DNA from: Marinomonas rhizomae
GTDB taxonomy: Bacteria; Pseudomonadota; Gammaproteobacteria; Pseudomonadales; Marinomonadaceae
Direction: 5' to 3'
Length of the DNA stretch: 64,000 nt
Assembly (NCBI RefSeq): GCF_024397855.1
Contig: NZ_CP073343.1
Location: forward strand, 3,658,001 to 3,722,000
How positions within the stretch are numbered: the stretch's first letter is position 1; the number at the start of each line of letters is the position of its first letter. Positions 29,238 through 36,663 of this stretch are shown here, piece by piece. Both the position numbers and the translations under genes were made by a program. The notes under the pieces are model-generated. The model was given only the letters and a program-made list of their open reading frames with translations. It made no database searches and was not told where the DNA came from.

Positions 29238-30359
29238 ATGACAGAGCCTTTTAAAAATCTCTTTAATAACAGTGTAATTAAAAAGATGGCAGAACACTTT
29301 CAGCTCCATTGGGAAGCATTCGATAAAAAGGGGTTTATTGCTACTGCGTGCCATCAGCTTGAGACCCTAGAACTAAAAGCACGCTCACAACAAATTACCG
29401 ACGCCATGAGCCAATTTTTGCCAAAAGATTTCGAACACGCGGGTCAAATTTTACTCGACTCTTTAGCGCCAGAATTCGAAGAAGGTAAAGCGGTCGAAAG
29501 TGATGGTATTTCTGGCTGGGCAGTAATGCCAATGGGTGATTATGTGGGCATTCATGGTCTTGCTCATCACGAACGTTCCATGCTCTTGCTGAATGCAATG
29601 ACACGTCGCTTCACAGCTGAATTTAGCATTCGCTTTTTCTTATTGGCATCACAGGAAGAAACCCTCTCGACACTCAGAGGCTGGCTTCAAGATGGCAATA
29701 AACACGTGCGACGCCTTATCTCAGAAGGCACTCGCCCTCGCTTACCTTGGGCTATGCAGTTACCGCGCTTTATTGAAAACCCAACACCAATAATTGAATT
29801 ACTTGAAGAACTGAAAGACGACCCAGAAGAATACGTGCGACGCTCGGTGGCAAATAACCTCAATGACATCGCTAAGGATCACCCAGACCGTGTGGCCGAT
29901 ATTGCAAGTGTATGGATGCAAGGCGCGGATATAAACCGTCAGAAGCTGATACGTCATGCTTGTCGTACCTTGTTAAAACAAGGCAACCCTAAGGCACTTA
30001 TCGTTTTTGGCTATACTCAACCAAAGCTCGGCCATATAAAACTGGAAATACATGACGAACAGGTAAGATTGAACAGTCATCTAGAATTTTCATTGCAGCT
30101 TGAGTCCGCCAGCGAAGAGGATCAATCCTTAATGATTGATTACGTTATTCATCACCAAAAAAAGACAGGCAAAACCACGCCTAAAGTATTTAAGTGGAAA
30201 AAAACCACTTTGCAGGCCAATAAAAACCTATCTGTTAGTAAAAAACACCCTTTCAAAAACATCACGACTCGTGTGTATTATGATGGTCTCCATGAGGTGG
30301 AAATTATTATCAATGGCCAATCGGTTGCGAAGAAGAGCTTCTTTTTATCGACTGGCTAA
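29238..30359 (+). CDS. DNA alkylation repair protein, AlkD-like HEAT-repeat
   Basis: A 373-residue protein composed of helical repeats like AlkD-family glycosylases, with HVRRLISEGTRPRLPWA near residue 155 and EYVRRSVANNLNDIAKDHP near residue 195. These proteins excise positively charged alkylated bases. A beta-rich C-terminal part (about residues 265-373) is an extra domain. A clear AAGGAAG site precedes the ATG. The stop codon overlaps that of the convergent cyclase gene. Activity is inferred from the family. Confidence 0.83.
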   Translation: MTEPFKNLFNNSVIKKMAEHFQLHWEAFDKKGFIATACHQLETLELKARSQQITDAMSQFLPKDFEHAGQILLDSLAPEFEEGKAVESDGISGWAVMPMGDYVGIHGLAHHERSMLLLNAMTRRFTAEFSIRFFLLASQEETLSTLRGWLQDGNKHVRRLISEGTRPRLPWAMQLPRFIENPTPIIELLEELKDDPEEYVRRSVANNLNDIAKDHPDRVADIASVWMQGADINRQKLIRHACRTLLKQGNPKALIVFGYTQPKLGHIKLEIHDEQVRLNSHLEFSLQLESASEEDQSLMIDYVIHHQKKTGKTTPKVFKWKKTTLQANKNLSVSKKHPFKNITTRVYYDGLHEVEIIINGQSVAKKSFFLSTG

Positions 30360-31714
30360 CCTGCCATCACGCAATTTCGCCCCGCTCCTTTAGCTTCGTA
30401 AAGTAAAATATCGGCACGTTTTACAATGCTATTTTGATCATCAAAATCTTGATAATCGGTCACGCCCAAGCTAATGGTGAATGGCGGCATGTCGCCTTCA
30501 TTAAGTGCCTCGACCTTCTTACGAAGCTGCTCTGCCAACATGCCAGCATCTTCTAGGTTGGTATCTCTTACTAACACGGCAAACTCTTCACCACCCACTC
30601 GAAACAAGACGTCGGTTTCTCTTAAGCGTTTTCGCAATACGTTAACCAGTAATTTAAGTACGTTATCGCCAATATCATGACCATAGGTATCGTTGATCTT
30701 TTTAAAGTGATCGACGTCTAACAGAATCAAACTAAAATGGTGGCCGCGATTGGCAAGCGCCAACTCATCTTTGATTTGTTCATCCCATTTGTGTCGGTTA
30801 TAAGCGCCGGTCAGTTTGTCACGGGTCGCCAGTTCTATTAATTGCGTTTCTACTTCATCACGACTTTCTTTTTCCATGGAAAATCGCCCCATTAAAAGCG
30901 TTAAGTCTTTTTCTAACTCATCCAGTTCATCAGAACCTTTATAGCGTGTTGTTTCGTTACTTTTATCAGAAGAAATAGAGCGATGCAGTATTTCTATTTG
31001 TCCGCGTAATGAACCTACTTTTCGGCGAAAAGACAAAATTGTATGGAGCGTTAAATATCCACCAATAGCAAAGGCTGAAACACCTAATAGAGCATTAATG
31101 ATCATGAAGTCGCGTTCTTGTTTTTCAACCGTGGCGGCAACTTTAATGGTGAGCTGGTCAATATCAGCAAGAAAATGATCCGTTTGAGTATCTAAAAGAG
31201 TATCTTGCTTTTCCAATGCCGCCCATGTGCTTTTAAAATGGTCACGCCCTTGCTCTACGAAGTGGAAGAACAAATTTTCAAAGCTCAATCGGTGGCTATG
31301 TAATGCATTCACTTTTTCTATTAAAGTTTGATGGTCACTTCGCTTAATCCGAACACTACCATACTGCATGCCGCTATGAAGTATGCTGACGGCCTTATCA
31401 AGCCCAGCAGAAAGTTGCTCGCTAAAGTCGTTAAAGCCTTTCAGACTTTTTACCTTATTCGACTCATTGTCAAAAAATGCTAGACCTTGCTGGCGTATCG
31501 TTTCGACTAAAATATGCTGCTTAAGCTGCAACATTTCTACTTCAGCAATAAGCTCAGTCAGCGGAATATCAATCTCGGCAACCTCATGCATTTCGGAATA
31601 AATTTTCTGCGTTTGATAGGCTGAATAAAGAATCACCACAAACAGAAATGACAAAAGAATAAACGATAAGCTGCTAACTTTTCGTGTCATAGAGGCATTT
31701 AACCAATTAAACAT
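30356..31714 (-). CDS. Membrane diguanylate cyclase, tandem paralogue 1
   Basis: A 452-residue protein: membrane helix 1 (about 13-33), a helical periplasmic sensor domain of some 170 residues, membrane helix 2 (about 203-225), a HAMP-like linker and a C-terminal GGDEF domain. The active site GGEEF (374-378) is intact and the product-inhibition site RETD (365-368) is present, so it should make c-di-GMP with feedback control. It is closely related along the whole length to the next gene, which points to a tandem duplication. The periplasmic ligand is unknown. Confidence 0.93.
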   Translation of the reverse strand: MFNWLNASMTRKVSSLSFILLSFLFVVILYSAYQTQKIYSEMHEVAEIDIPLTELIAEVEMLQLKQHILVETIRQQGLAFFDNESNKVKSLKGFNDFSEQLSAGLDKAVSILHSGMQYGSVRIKRSDHQTLIEKVNALHSHRLSFENLFFHFVEQGRDHFKSTWAALEKQDTLLDTQTDHFLADIDQLTIKVAATVEKQERDFMIINALLGVSAFAIGGYLTLHTILSFRRKVGSLRGQIEILHRSISSDKSNETTRYKGSDELDELEKDLTLLMGRFSMEKESRDEVETQLIELATRDKLTGAYNRHKWDEQIKDELALANRGHHFSLILLDVDHFKKINDTYGHDIGDNVLKLLVNVLRKRLRETDVLFRVGGEEFAVLVRDTNLEDAGMLAEQLRKKVEALNEGDMPPFTISLGVTDYQDFDDQNSIVKRADILLYEAKGAGRNCVMAG

Positions 31715-31848: not shown

Positions 31849-33207
31849 TTAGCCAGCTTTGGTTTGATTTCGTCCAGCCTCTTTGGCTTCGTATAACAAG
31901 ACATCTGCACGTTTTACGATGCCATCTTGATCATCAGAGTCTTGATACTCAGTCACTCCCAAACTAACGGTAAAAGCAGGCACCTTGTTTTCATGTAAAG
32001 ACTCAACGTTTTTGCGCAACATTTCAGCTAATTTAGTGGCATCAGCAAGATGTGTATCTCTCAGCAAAATAGCAAACTCTTCTCCACCCACTCTGAACAA
32101 GATATCTGTTTCACGAAGTCGTCTTCTTAGACAGTTAACTAATAGCTTTAAAACACTGTCGCCTACATCGTGACCGTGACTATCGTTAATCTTTTTAAAA
32201 TTGTCTACATCCAACAAGATCAAACTAAAATAATGACCACGGTTCGCCAATGCTAATTCATCCTTAATATGTTCATCCCATTTATGGCGATTAAATACGC
32301 CAGTCAGCTTGTCTCGTGTTGCCAGCTCAAGCAGCTGGGTTTCTACTTCATCGCGGTTTTCTTTTTCTAGACACAAACGCGTCATTAAGATTTTTAAATC
32401 TTTTTCCAGCTCATCTAGCTCATCAAAGCCCTTATTGAATACAACTCGCTCATTTTCATCAGCCGAAATTGAGCGATGGAGAGAATCGATGTGTCCTCGC
32501 AAAGAGCCAACTTTACGACGAAAGGATAAGATGGTGTAAATCGTCAAATAGCCACCGATTGTAAACGCCAAAAAGCCGAGAATGGCATTCACAATCATAA
32601 AATGCTGTTCATGCTGTTCAACAGTCGCCGCCACTTTGATGGTGATTTGATCAATATTAACGAGCAAATCATCGGCCTCTTTATCCAGTAGGTAATATTG
32701 CTTTTCCAGTTCATCCCAGGGGTGACCTAAGCCTTCCTTGGCTTGCTTTAAAAATAGCGAAAATGCGTTTTCCACACTTATTCTATGGACCTGCAGTGTT
32801 TTAATATGCTGGATTAAGGCCTGATGATCAGCCACATTAATTCGCACACTGCCAAACTTCATGCCCACATGAAGAATGCTCATTGCTTTGTCGAGCTGTG
32901 CAGACAATTTATGACTAAATTCATCGAAACCTTTCATGCTCTTAGCTTGCAGCACTTCATTAGTAAAAAAAGCTTCACCTTGCTGGCGGATGGTTTCCAT
33001 TAGTAAATGCTGTTTGAGCTGTAAAATTTCTACATCAGCAATGATCTGAGAAAGCGGAATATCTATCTCAGCAACTTCTTGCATTTCTTTGTAGATTTTC
33101 TGTGTTTGATAAGCCGAATAAAGAATCACTACAAAAAGAAAAGACAAAAGCACAAAAGCACAAAAGATAGGCTCGTTATTTTTCGGGTCATTGAGACATT
33201 TAACCAA
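31849..33207 (-). CDS. Membrane diguanylate cyclase, tandem paralogue 2, frame-disrupted start
   Basis: Same architecture as paralogue 1: sensor domain between two membrane helices, HAMP-like linker and GGDEF domain with intact GGEEF and RETD. The open frame runs to a TTG at 33207. The expected start is the ATG at 33215, which encodes MFSWLNVSMTRKITSLSF, the counterpart of the paralogue's N-terminus. That frame is lost at an 8-bp tandem repeat (33144-33166) and meets a TAG at 33129-33131. Removing one repeat unit restores SFVLLSFLFVVILY in frame. Either a TTG start rescues the protein, or the gene is off in this sequence, or the repeat is an assembly error. Confidence 0.8.
   Translation of the reverse strand: MVKCLNDPKNNEPIFCAFVLLSFLFVVILYSAYQTQKIYKEMQEVAEIDIPLSQIIADVEILQLKQHLLMETIRQQGEAFFTNEVLQAKSMKGFDEFSHKLSAQLDKAMSILHVGMKFGSVRINVADHQALIQHIKTLQVHRISVENAFSLFLKQAKEGLGHPWDELEKQYYLLDKEADDLLVNIDQITIKVAATVEQHEQHFMIVNAILGFLAFTIGGYLTIYTILSFRRKVGSLRGHIDSLHRSISADENERVVFNKGFDELDELEKDLKILMTRLCLEKENRDEVETQLLELATRDKLTGVFNRHKWDEHIKDELALANRGHYFSLILLDVDNFKKINDSHGHDVGDSVLKLLVNCLRRRLRETDILFRVGGEEFAILLRDTHLADATKLAEMLRKNVESLHENKVPAFTVSLGVTEYQDSDDQDGIVKRADVLLYEAKEAGRNQTKAG
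33144..33166 (-). repeat. 8-bp tandem repeat in coding sequence (2.9 copies)
   Basis: On the plus strand ACAAAAGC occurs twice and is followed by ACAAAAG. The repeat lies in the codons for the first membrane helix of the second cyclase paralogue. With 1.9 copies the gene would be in frame from its ATG; with 2.9 copies, as here, it is not. Confidence 0.9.
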
Positions 33208-33487: not shown

Positions 33488-34993
33488 ATGCTCTACCGAT
33501 TAACCTTAACCTTCTTTCTCACTCTTAGTGTATTGGTACCAAAAGGTGCTCTTGCTGAAAAGCAGGCAACCATTATCTATGATGCTGAAATGCCAAGAAT
33601 AAACGCCCCCTTAAAAGGTAGCTATGCGCAACTGGCTAGCCTTATTGACCAATATCGAGCACAAAACCCCAGTACATTTTTTATTTTCGGTGGCGATAGT
33701 CTAGGACCAAGCATGATTTCGTCTATGGATCGAGGTGCCCATATTATTGATATGCTTAACAGTTTAGCTCCTAATGTCATGGGCGTTTCAAAACGTGAGT
33801 TGACCTATGAAGAAGATGAGCTCATTCTCCGTACGTACGAAGCAGCCTTCCCTATTGTATCAAGCAATCTATTCGAACCTGGTAGTCAGCAAGCTCCTGA
33901 AGGTATTAAGGCCTACACCATACTTCAACAAGGCCAAGTGAAACTGGGTTTTATGTCTATCCTAGACCCCATCATTCTAGAAAAATACCCAACGAAAAGG
34001 CTCGAAGTCGCTGAACCTGAAAGCGTTATCAGAGAGACCGTTAAAAAAATCAGAGAGCAAAATGTCGACTTGATCGTTATGCATTACTCCACCTACACCC
34101 CTCTTATTGACCAGCTTCTGGCCGAAGGCGTGATTGATTTTGCGCTCTTTAAAGATCAAAACTTAGATTTAAATGTCCGTGAGAGAAAGCCAAAACACCA
34201 CAATAATATACAGATTACAGAAGAAACCGACGCGGCTGTCATTCAGCTCACTTGGCAAGAGGATAGTCCAAGCGATAGCCTCACCGTAAAAAGCACCATA
34301 GTAAACATTACGAACTTGCCTTCAAAACCACAGGTTTTACAGCAAGAAGTACAATACGACAGTCGGCTCAACTCCTTATTGAATGAAGTAGTGGGCACGA
34401 CCAATATACTCATTGATCTAGATAGAAAAACACTGCGTACATCTGAAAATAACTTTGCAAATTTCGTCGCGGATACTTTTAAGTACTTTACCGAGGCTCA
34501 AATCGTCTTGATTAATAGCGGAACATTCCGTGGAAACAAACTCATCAAAGAAGGAGAGCAAATAACCGTCAAAGACATTCGTTTAATATTACCCTACCGA
34601 AACAAAGTTAAGCTCATTGAAGCGAATGGACAACAAATCAACGAGGCGCTGGAACACGGACTGAATGGATTGGAACAACACAGTGGACAATTTCTACAGG
34701 TGGCTGGCATTAAGGTAACATATGACTCAACACTGCCAGTTGGACAGAGATTATTGTCTGTCACTCTAAACGATAAACCACTTAATCCCACACAAACTTA
34801 CAGGGTAGCGATTCTTGATTATTTATTAAAGGGCGGCGATGGCTTTAACATGTTCAAGAACAACAAAATATTAACCTACTCACAAATCTCAAACTTAACC
34901 CTATCAGACATTATGACCGTTGAAATTCAACAACAAGAAACCATAGAACCTAAAGTAGATGGGCGCTTAAAAGATGTATCAATGGACTTATGA
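33488..34993 (+). CDS. Periplasmic 5'-nucleotidase-family protein with degenerate metal site
   Basis: A 501-residue secreted protein (signal peptide to about ALA-23) with the UshA layout: metallophosphatase-like N-terminal domain, then a 5_nucleotid_C domain. In the first domain GGDSLGPS is kept, but the D-x-H motif is replaced by IIYDAEMPR, GNHE by GVSKRE, and GHxH by FKDQNLD, so most metal ligands are gone. The C-terminal nucleoside-binding domain looks intact (INSGTFRGN, GQFLQVAG, GGDGF). I infer a non-catalytic nucleotide- or nucleoside-binding protein. The stop overlaps the start of a cyclase gene (ATGA), which suggests a sensory partner. Confidence 0.8.
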   Translation: MLYRLTLTFFLTLSVLVPKGALAEKQATIIYDAEMPRINAPLKGSYAQLASLIDQYRAQNPSTFFIFGGDSLGPSMISSMDRGAHIIDMLNSLAPNVMGVSKRELTYEEDELILRTYEAAFPIVSSNLFEPGSQQAPEGIKAYTILQQGQVKLGFMSILDPIILEKYPTKRLEVAEPESVIRETVKKIREQNVDLIVMHYSTYTPLIDQLLAEGVIDFALFKDQNLDLNVRERKPKHHNNIQITEETDAAVIQLTWQEDSPSDSLTVKSTIVNITNLPSKPQVLQQEVQYDSRLNSLLNEVVGTTNILIDLDRKTLRTSENNFANFVADTFKYFTEAQIVLINSGTFRGNKLIKEGEQITVKDIRLILPYRNKVKLIEANGQQINEALEHGLNGLEQHSGQFLQVAGIKVTYDSTLPVGQRLLSVTLNDKPLNPTQTYRVAILDYLLKGGDGFNMFKNNKILTYSQISNLTLSDIMTVEIQQQETIEPKVDGRLKDVSMDL

Positions 34994-36663
34994 ATAAACC
35001 AGACCGAACGACATTTTTTCCGATACCGAATGCGAAACAAGGTCGTCGACTAAGCCTAGGTAAGCAGCTAAGTATATTAATGCTCGTCGTCCTGCTGCTT
35101 TTCATTTCTGTAGGCTTCGTATTACAAACTCGTTTAGAGCAAACTCAGCTAGTCCTTAATGATTTGACCCTGACGACTATACCTGCCATGAACAGTTCGA
35201 CACGAGGCGTATTAAAATCCAGTGAGTTGTTATTAGCGCTTGAATCGCTGACCTCCGCAAGATCGCCAGCGGAAAGAAGAATTGCTGAGCTAGAAGTTCA
35301 AAAAAAGATTGATGAATCCACTAAGGATATTGGGTATAAAAATCAAACAGAAATATTACTACTCAAATCCATTCGAGAGGAAACCATAAGCCTCAATCAA
35401 CTGATTGACCAGAAGCTTGATCTAGCCAATCAAATAAATATCGATTTAAGTTCCTTATGGGATCTAAAAAAACACGCAGAATACATTAAGATTAAACAAG
35501 ATAAATCAGAAGAAAAAGATCGCAACCAACTGATACAATGGAAAGTTGCCTTCCTAGAAGTGATATCGCTCGCTTATCACATAACCACAACCGAAAGACT
35601 CGGTGATTTACAAGAAATACATCGCAACCTTGAACGTCACCTTAACGTTTTAGATAGTGTAGAGACAAATCTATCGGAAAAAAATAAAGTAACAATCCAA
35701 TCAATAAACGCAAACCTAAGAGATATCCTGTCTGACCCAGAAAACCTAACAGAGCTGCGAGCCAATTACTTGCGCGTCATGGGGCGAGCACGCGGCCGCG
35801 AGCATTTTATTCGCAATATGATCAGTGATTACAGCAACATAACCAATCAACTTTCTCTTAATGAACATAAAAACTTACAAGTCAAGGCGGCTGAACTTGA
35901 CCAAGGAATGCATAATCAAAAAACTTGGTTTATTAGCGGATTTCTTTTATTGGCAGGAATGGTGATAGCCACATTGGCTTTTTACTCTAATGCGATTAAG
36001 CGTTTGAAAAAATTGACTCGAAAAATCCATCGTATGACAGAAGACTCAAATGATAATACATTGTACATGGATGAGATCGATGAGTTGTTTCAAGCATTCG
36101 ATGGATTTTCACAAACAATCGATATGCAAAAACAACGCTTAGAAGCATTGTCACTCACCGACAGCCTAACTAACATAGCTAATAGGAGGGCCTTTGACCT
36201 ACATCTATTCGAGCAGCTCGCAATTCAAAAAAATGGCCCATATGACTTGTCAGTTTTATTGATTGATGTCGACTTCTTTAAGCAATACAACGACTATTAT
36301 GGTCATATTAGCGGCGATGAGGCATTACAAAAAATAGCAGCGATATTAGACAGTACAATTGATAAAAAAACGGATTTGATCGCACGTTATGGCGGAGAAG
36401 AGTTTGTTGTCATTTTATCGGGTAAAAACGCAGCTGACGCCAAGCAAGTCGCACAAAAAATGCAACAGGCTTTAAACCTTGCCAATATAGAACATGCTGA
36501 CAGCCAAGCTTTTAGCGTCGTCACTATCAGCATAGGCATAGTGACGATACATCAAGGAGAAACCACTGACACAGACACATTGATGAAAAAAGCAGACACG
36601 GCATTGTATCATTCTAAACATCACGGCCGTAACAGAGCGACTCACTTCAATGACATAACATAA
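34990..36663 (+). CDS. Membrane diguanylate cyclase coupled to the nucleotidase-like protein
   Basis: A 557-residue protein with two membrane helices (about 27-46 and 312-332) enclosing a helical periplasmic domain of about 265 residues, then a short HAMP-like region and a GGDEF domain with GGEEF at 468-472. The inhibitory site is degenerate (KKTD in place of RxxD). Its start codon overlaps the stop of the nucleotidase-like gene by 4 bp, so both are made from one transcript. The large periplasmic domain is a likely docking surface for that protein. Confidence 0.92.
   Translation: MNKPDRTTFFPIPNAKQGRRLSLGKQLSILMLVVLLLFISVGFVLQTRLEQTQLVLNDLTLTTIPAMNSSTRGVLKSSELLLALESLTSARSPAERRIAELEVQKKIDESTKDIGYKNQTEILLLKSIREETISLNQLIDQKLDLANQINIDLSSLWDLKKHAEYIKIKQDKSEEKDRNQLIQWKVAFLEVISLAYHITTTERLGDLQEIHRNLERHLNVLDSVETNLSEKNKVTIQSINANLRDILSDPENLTELRANYLRVMGRARGREHFIRNMISDYSNITNQLSLNEHKNLQVKAAELDQGMHNQKTWFISGFLLLAGMVIATLAFYSNAIKRLKKLTRKIHRMTEDSNDNTLYMDEIDELFQAFDGFSQTIDMQKQRLEALSLTDSLTNIANRRAFDLHLFEQLAIQKNGPYDLSVLLIDVDFFKQYNDYYGHISGDEALQKIAAILDSTIDKKTDLIARYGGEEFVVILSGKNAADAKQVAQKMQQALNLANIEHADSQAFSVVTISIGIVTIHQGETTDTDTLMKKADTALYHSKHHGRNRATHFNDIT

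Follow-up and report, generated by a model that had tools for sequence, protein, structure and literature searches.

The window, a 64,000-nucleotide stretch of the Marinomonas rhizomae genome (contig NZ_CP073343.1, positions 3,658,001 to 3,722,000), contains two overlapping genes at 33488 to 36663: a homologue of periplasmic 5'-nucleotidases and a membrane diguanylate cyclase. The question raised by this locus is what a nucleotidase-like protein without its catalytic residues does beside an enzyme of cyclic di-GMP (c-di-GMP) synthesis. The answer proposed here, to which a probability of about two in three is assigned, is that the pair acts as a periplasm-to-cytoplasm receptor that would link an external nucleoside or 5'-nucleotide to c-di-GMP; we infer the ligand, the complex and the transfer of the signal. 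Directly established are the loss of catalytic residues, the conservation of the pocket, the consistent pairing, a shared sensor fold at the level of prediction, and purifying selection. Both genes lie on the forward strand and are joined by an ATGA overlap, with the following features:

33488..34993, + strand: gene 1, periplasmic pseudo-5'-nucleotidase of the UshA/CD73 fold, 501 amino acids (aa), proposed nucleoside/nucleotide receptor
33557..34330, + strand: degenerate metallophosphatase domain (gene 1 residues ~24-281), with E-x-P for DxH, SKRE for GNHE and R103 for the catalytic His
34388..34858, + strand: C-terminal nucleoside-binding domain (Pfam 5_nucleotid_C, gene 1 residues 301-457), pocket R317, N343, R348, Y370, Y445, D451
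34990..36663, + strand: gene 2, membrane diguanylate cyclase, 557 aa, with a first transmembrane helix (TM1), a TorS-fold periplasmic sensor, a second helix (TM2), a HAMP-like linker and a GGEEF domain
35182..35868, + strand: predicted TorS-fold, all-helical periplasmic sensor region (gene 2 residues 65-293)
36154..36636, + strand: GGDEF catalytic domain (gene 2 residues 389-549), GGEEF intact, KKTD rather than RxxD at the I-site position

A lost catalytic site and a retained pocket

Residues ~1-23 of gene 1 resemble a signal peptide, as judged by eye. The AlphaFold2 model of the protein, built on a 43-row alignment (mean predicted local distance difference test score, pLDDT, 91.2), shows the two-domain UshA architecture, and Foldseek and VIA-align assigned it the UshA/CD73/SoxB fold across almost its entire length. 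Only the C-terminal 5_nucleotid_C domain was matched by Pfam (PF02872, 1.1e-41); on the predicted structure, the metallophosphatase half is present but too diverged for Pfam detection. Sixty-two family members (the window protein and 61 loci) were aligned with 13 relatives that keep the GNHE motif. The di-metal ligands of DxH, GDxx, GNH and GHxH/Q are not retained in the window protein, where E/P, D (kept), K, S and D/N are found, and what occupies these positions varies widely among family members (D41 as E, D or N; D84 as G, D, E, N or A; H252 mostly as D). The second DxH residue is His in none of the 60 rows with a residue there, two rows being gapped. The His-Asp dyad (H117/D120) is replaced by R103/T106 in the window protein; at the catalytic His, the family carries Arg (61/62) or Lys (1/62), and at the preceding Asn position Lys in 49, Gln in 6, Arg in 5, His in 1 and Asn in 1. 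GNHE is present in all 13 comparators, three of which have Tyr at H43 and two Asp at H252. With the di-metal site and the catalytic His lost, gene 1 should be incapable of the known hydrolysis chemistry. Several family proteins are named 'bifunctional metallophosphatase/5'-nucleotidase' or similar in databases, a label that probably misstates their function. A metagenome protein of 507 aa (P0076) is a distant relative (27% identity) that also lacks GNHE, with a different replacement there.

The nucleoside pocket has fared differently from the metal site. Its positions, which we take to be R354, N390, R395, F417, F500 and D506 by CD73 numbering, were carried over via a phmmer alignment to R317, N343, R348, Y370, Y445 and D451 of the window protein. 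R317, E320, R348 and D451 are each present in 62/62 members, Phe or Tyr occupies position 445 in 62/62 and position 370 in 61/62, and N343 is found in 57/62; the pocket is kept even in family proteins with as little as 24% identity to the window protein. At the sequence level, this residue pattern is that of a binding protein derived from an enzyme. The original prediction of a catalytically dead nucleotidase homologue with the UshA fold and a preserved nucleoside-binding domain is thus borne out by the replaced metal motifs and catalytic His, the predicted structure and the near-invariant pocket.

Conservation of the pocket also bears on what is bound. Gene 1 could be a TorT-like partner of the cyclase that responds to a ligand other than a nucleoside or nucleotide (a phosphate ester, a metal or a peptide) or, ligand-free, to the state of the envelope. 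Pocket conservation is read from sequence, and P74, D81, H85, R103, G139 and Y167 in the N-terminal domain, (nearly) fixed in the family yet differing in the comparators, may mark a new site there. Such a ligand is nevertheless considered unlikely, as the residues assigned as CD73/UshA nucleoside contacts are near-invariant in 62 proteins down to the 24% level.

Pairing, distribution and selection

Strong members, clearly set apart from the relatives that keep GNHE, are present in 16 of 34 Marinomonas genomes, in 29 of 147 genomes of one family of the class and in 12 of 116 of another family of the same order; with the own genome included, they were found in 9 of 293 genomes of an order sample (E<1e-130) and 2 of 369 of a class sample. 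The pair is also present in Psychrosphaera sp. F3M07 (L050), and the scan of genome contigs found one locus only. In a phylum sample of 398 genomes, 41 matched at E<=1e-55, comprising 5 known members and 36 others. Among the latter, 30 were fetched and 6 lacked a callable nucleotidase open reading frame (ORF); 24 were scored and 12 were not, giving one new pseudoenzyme member (L213) and 23 genomes that keep GNHE. In several of these 23, H43 is replaced by Tyr or Asp, and in three, Gln stands at H217 together with Asp at H252; possession of GNHE is therefore no proof of activity.

An in-frame GGDEF partner lies immediately downstream on the same strand in 60/62 members, with GGEEF in 58 and GGEEL in 2. 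The partner of L163 is interrupted by the contig end and matches GGDEF nonetheless; that of L091 is a hybrid histidine kinase, with a receiver-GGDEF protein encoded after it, and that of L213 is also a hybrid histidine kinase. Both kinases bear the same sensor domain as the cyclases. Overall, 61 GGDEF proteins and 2 kinases give an adjacent signalling gene in 63/63 members, and the catalytic His is lost in all 63. With 53 GGDEF domains in the own genome at E<=1e-10, chance adjacency would be ~1 per cent (assuming 4000 genes), related genomes being non-independent trials. By the sensor profile, the gene 1 family and the receptor-type sensor are linked one-to-one. GGEEL replaces GGEEF in the cyclases of L043 and L046, whose activity is uncertain on sequence grounds.

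No GGDEF or sensor-profile match was found in the two nearest called ORFs on each side of the 23 GNHE-bearing phylum relatives. The sensor profile gave no strong match near the GNHE-bearing nucleotidase of the own genome (G000); G638 (L095) lay outside that profile search, and the neighbours of L052-L056 outside the scoring. A stricter statement, that GNHE-bearing 5'-nucleotidases never occur near GGDEF genes, is not made, given L095, with a 967-aa GGDEF ORF upstream, and the own genome's nucleotidase, with a GGDEF gene ~1.6 kb away on the opposite strand. A 612-aa protein from a metagenome contig (P0074), which carries both domains, was considered as a natural fusion. In it, roughly 354 N-terminal residues of gene 1 run into the end of gene 2; it looks as if the locus had suffered an in-frame deletion (an assembly error or strain variant) rather than evolved into a fusion, and was therefore not counted as proof of interaction.

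In a FastTree phylogeny of 61 pseudoenzyme and 36 GNHE-bearing rows (truncated L170 and L171 excluded), the pseudoenzymes form a single clade with support 100. The kinase-paired L091 and L213 stand at its base with their fork unresolved, which does no more than hint at a TorS-like kinase as the first partner of gene 1. Distances of gene 1 correlate with those of the sensor (0.85) and of the GGDEF domain (0.79), partly through shared species descent; 57/62 members were used, excluding L163 and L091 (no full in-frame cyclase) and L164, L170 and L171 (near-duplicate or truncated). The ratio of non-synonymous to synonymous substitution rates (dN/dS) was calculated for close pairs: in five of them both genes have values far below 1, with dS saturated or very high in two further pairs; both genes are under purifying selection. 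These data bear on the idea that gene 1 is a decaying 5'-nucleotidase whose pairing is a local accident. The metal motifs are indeed gone from the window protein, but 63/63 members lack the catalytic His and have an adjacent signalling partner, within one supported clade and with dN/dS well below 1. Random decay is rejected on the conservation, the pairing and the dN/dS, and the accident is given next to no weight. The genome survey called for with the original prediction came out in its favour: other strains and species share the pair, and random decay does not account for the residue loss.

The sensor and the proposed signal path

The overlapping gene 2 was confirmed as a diguanylate cyclase gene, as originally proposed: Pfam matched GGDEF (8.1e-48; signature GGEEF) as the sole domain, with no EAL domain found in that scan. 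At the I-site position, RxxD is present in 38/60 partners and KKTD in the window cyclase. A HAMP-like linker is indicated by PF00672, which matched 20/20 sequences of the cyclase alignment at E<=1 (best 2.4e-05). In a structure search, the predicted fold of the periplasmic domain, an all-helical stacked bundle, was that of the TorS sensor (3i9y). Among the 50 matches listed, 3i9y is the only structure matching the sensor; because GGDEF structures dominate the list, other helical sensors are possible. The Pfam TorS model PF21689 matched 2/20 sequences of the cyclase alignment (best 0.0016) and exceeded its curated cut-off in 2/61 genomes, in one of them at the partner gene (G728). It was dropped as sole proof of the sensor because it is unspecific, and the fold match was used instead.

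In the proposed path, the gene 1 product would be exported to the periplasm, where its pocket of two aromatic residues, two Arg, Asn and Asp would hold a nucleoside or 5'-nucleotide from outside the cell. Phosphate may be held by the fixed Arg found in place of the catalytic His, which in nearly all members follows a Lys (mostly), Gln or Arg, as the position of this Arg would correspond to the former active-site phosphate location. Hinge motion is known for UshA; in a similar manner, the ligand would switch the gene 1 product between open and closed states, and the motion would uncover or cover a face docking on the TorS-fold sensor, so that one state docks, like TorT on TorS. Docking would shift the transmembrane helices (via TM2) and the HAMP-like linker, and so alter GGDEF activity and c-di-GMP. 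A nucleotide-binding pseudoenzyme with putative control over c-di-GMP, as first suggested for this locus, fits and is supported by the findings; its lack of nucleotidase activity and its ligand binding are likewise predicted.

Several observations weigh against this receptor model. The structural model of the sensor was built from 20 sequences, with a mean pLDDT of 74.6 for the whole cyclase; HHalign against E. coli TorS gave only a modest match (probability 80.9, 149 columns); PF21689 did not reach the window cyclase at E<=1; and other proteins, including chemoreceptor-sized ORFs, match that model about equally well. Strong matches of the sensor profile at paired genes are partly by construction, as it was derived from them. 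In gene 1, D84 is retained in the window protein, and D81 (62/62) and H85 (58/62), both metal-capable, have become fixed within the family as new residues and could in principle form a new metal site. The same two residues favour a gene 1 product that has remained an enzyme, whether through a changed hydrolase chemistry or through a new metal site, and whose product is sensed by the cyclase or which is merely co-transcribed with it. The domain is also predicted to fold well and evolves under purifying selection, and reactions can change among UshA-fold relatives, as in SoxB. Against this stand the scatter at the known metal ligand positions, the Arg or Lys at the catalytic His in 62/62 members and the one-to-one association with a sensor domain of receptor type, and retained catalysis is regarded as improbable, more so than a different ligand.

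A broader form of the receptor model is given even odds: that the CD73/UshA-fold pseudoenzyme represents a conserved purinergic-type receptor class driving TorS-fold sensors, perhaps of a hybrid histidine kinase first and of diguanylate cyclases later, through which marine Gammaproteobacteria would adjust c-di-GMP to nucleosides or nucleotides outside the cell (e.g. from lysed cells or DNA), the His-to-Arg exchange having created a phosphate-binding site.

The surroundings of the pair were also recorded. The window is a diguanylate cyclase hot spot: of the 53 GGDEF domains in the genome (E<=1e-10), 8 lie within ~32 kb (window ~30374-62080; G000:C1:3688374, 3689864, 3694154, 3698719, 3707505, 3711427, 3714179 and 3719610), against an average of 0.8 per 64 kb. 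Two very similar tandem diguanylate cyclases of 452 aa are encoded on the reverse strand (window 30356-31714 and 31849-33207), the second with a TTG start and its first ~16 residues unlike its twin. In relatives, the gene next to the pair at L089:1229-4054 encodes a phosphonate-binding-type periplasmic domain with PAS, GGDEF and EAL domains, and an ORF of similar size with a GGDEF match adjoins the pair in L090, L166 and L171. Downstream of the group B pair of L037, CofD-like, receiver-CheC and PAS-GGDEF genes are found at L037:9846-13127; L038 and L040-L046 have ORFs of like size and order, which L039 lacks (9/10 group B Marinomonas loci).

Comparison with known systems

Searches of open-licence PubMed Central (PMC) papers, with most subscription journals outside their scope, found no literature on a pseudo-nucleotidase/cyclase pair. 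Words beginning with diguanylate, GGDEF, pseudoenzyme or operon are absent from a genomic survey of ushA-like genes (PMC10454023), and neither 'nucleotidase' nor 'nucleoside' appears in a review of the stimuli of c-di-GMP signalling (PMC8846402). A passage of the latter lists adenosine among compounds raising c-di-GMP in Salmonella Typhimurium and names no receptor (PMC8846402). The earlier claim that no such system had been described stands, within these searches, for the pseudoenzyme receptor; it does not stand for periplasmic-receptor/c-di-GMP-enzyme pairs, as NspS-MbaA is known (PMC8079147). The new part is the proposed receptor, in which a UshA/CD73-fold protein with a dead active site is combined with a sensor of the TorS fold and a GGDEF output; the arrangement of a periplasmic binding protein with a membrane c-di-GMP enzyme is already known. 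If the receptor model is true, it offers a testable signal class for a cyclase family found in dozens of species, and an enzyme fold turned receptor with a single traceable origin. To our knowledge, many diguanylate cyclases lack a known signal.

Gene 1 shares with UshA, CD73 and SoxB the full two-domain fold and the C-terminal nucleoside pocket, and differs in having lost the metal ligands and the His-Asp dyad, with the His-to-Arg change nearly fixed in the family. RsbQ-RsbP modules are cytoplasmic. Modules of this type are reported to use an enzyme-fold protein as half of a bipartite sensor with varied outputs, RsbQ being said to supply an activity (PMC3183031). The likeness lies in the enzyme-fold sensor half and the difference in the folds and the location. 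In Vibrio cholerae, nspS lies directly upstream of mbaA, and NspS acts through MbaA by binding its periplasmic domain in polyamine sensing (PMC8079147). The gene order is shared, with the gene of the periplasmic protein immediately preceding that of the membrane c-di-GMP enzyme, whereas NspS binds a polyamine and MbaA has GGDEF and EAL domains; here the protein is nucleotidase-derived and the output GGDEF only.

The TMAO (trimethylamine N-oxide) receptor TorT-TorS of E. coli and Vibrio, in which TorT has a periplasmic-binding-protein fold, likewise combines a periplasmic binding protein with a membrane partner, whose sensor has the same predicted all-helical fold, and it provides a precedent for docking on such a sensor. 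Two basal family members pair with hybrid histidine kinases, of which TorS is one. The difference is that gene 1 is an UshA-type pseudoenzyme and not TorT-like, and that the output here is usually a GGDEF domain and not a kinase; if the receptor model holds, TorS-type sensing reaches beyond TorT.
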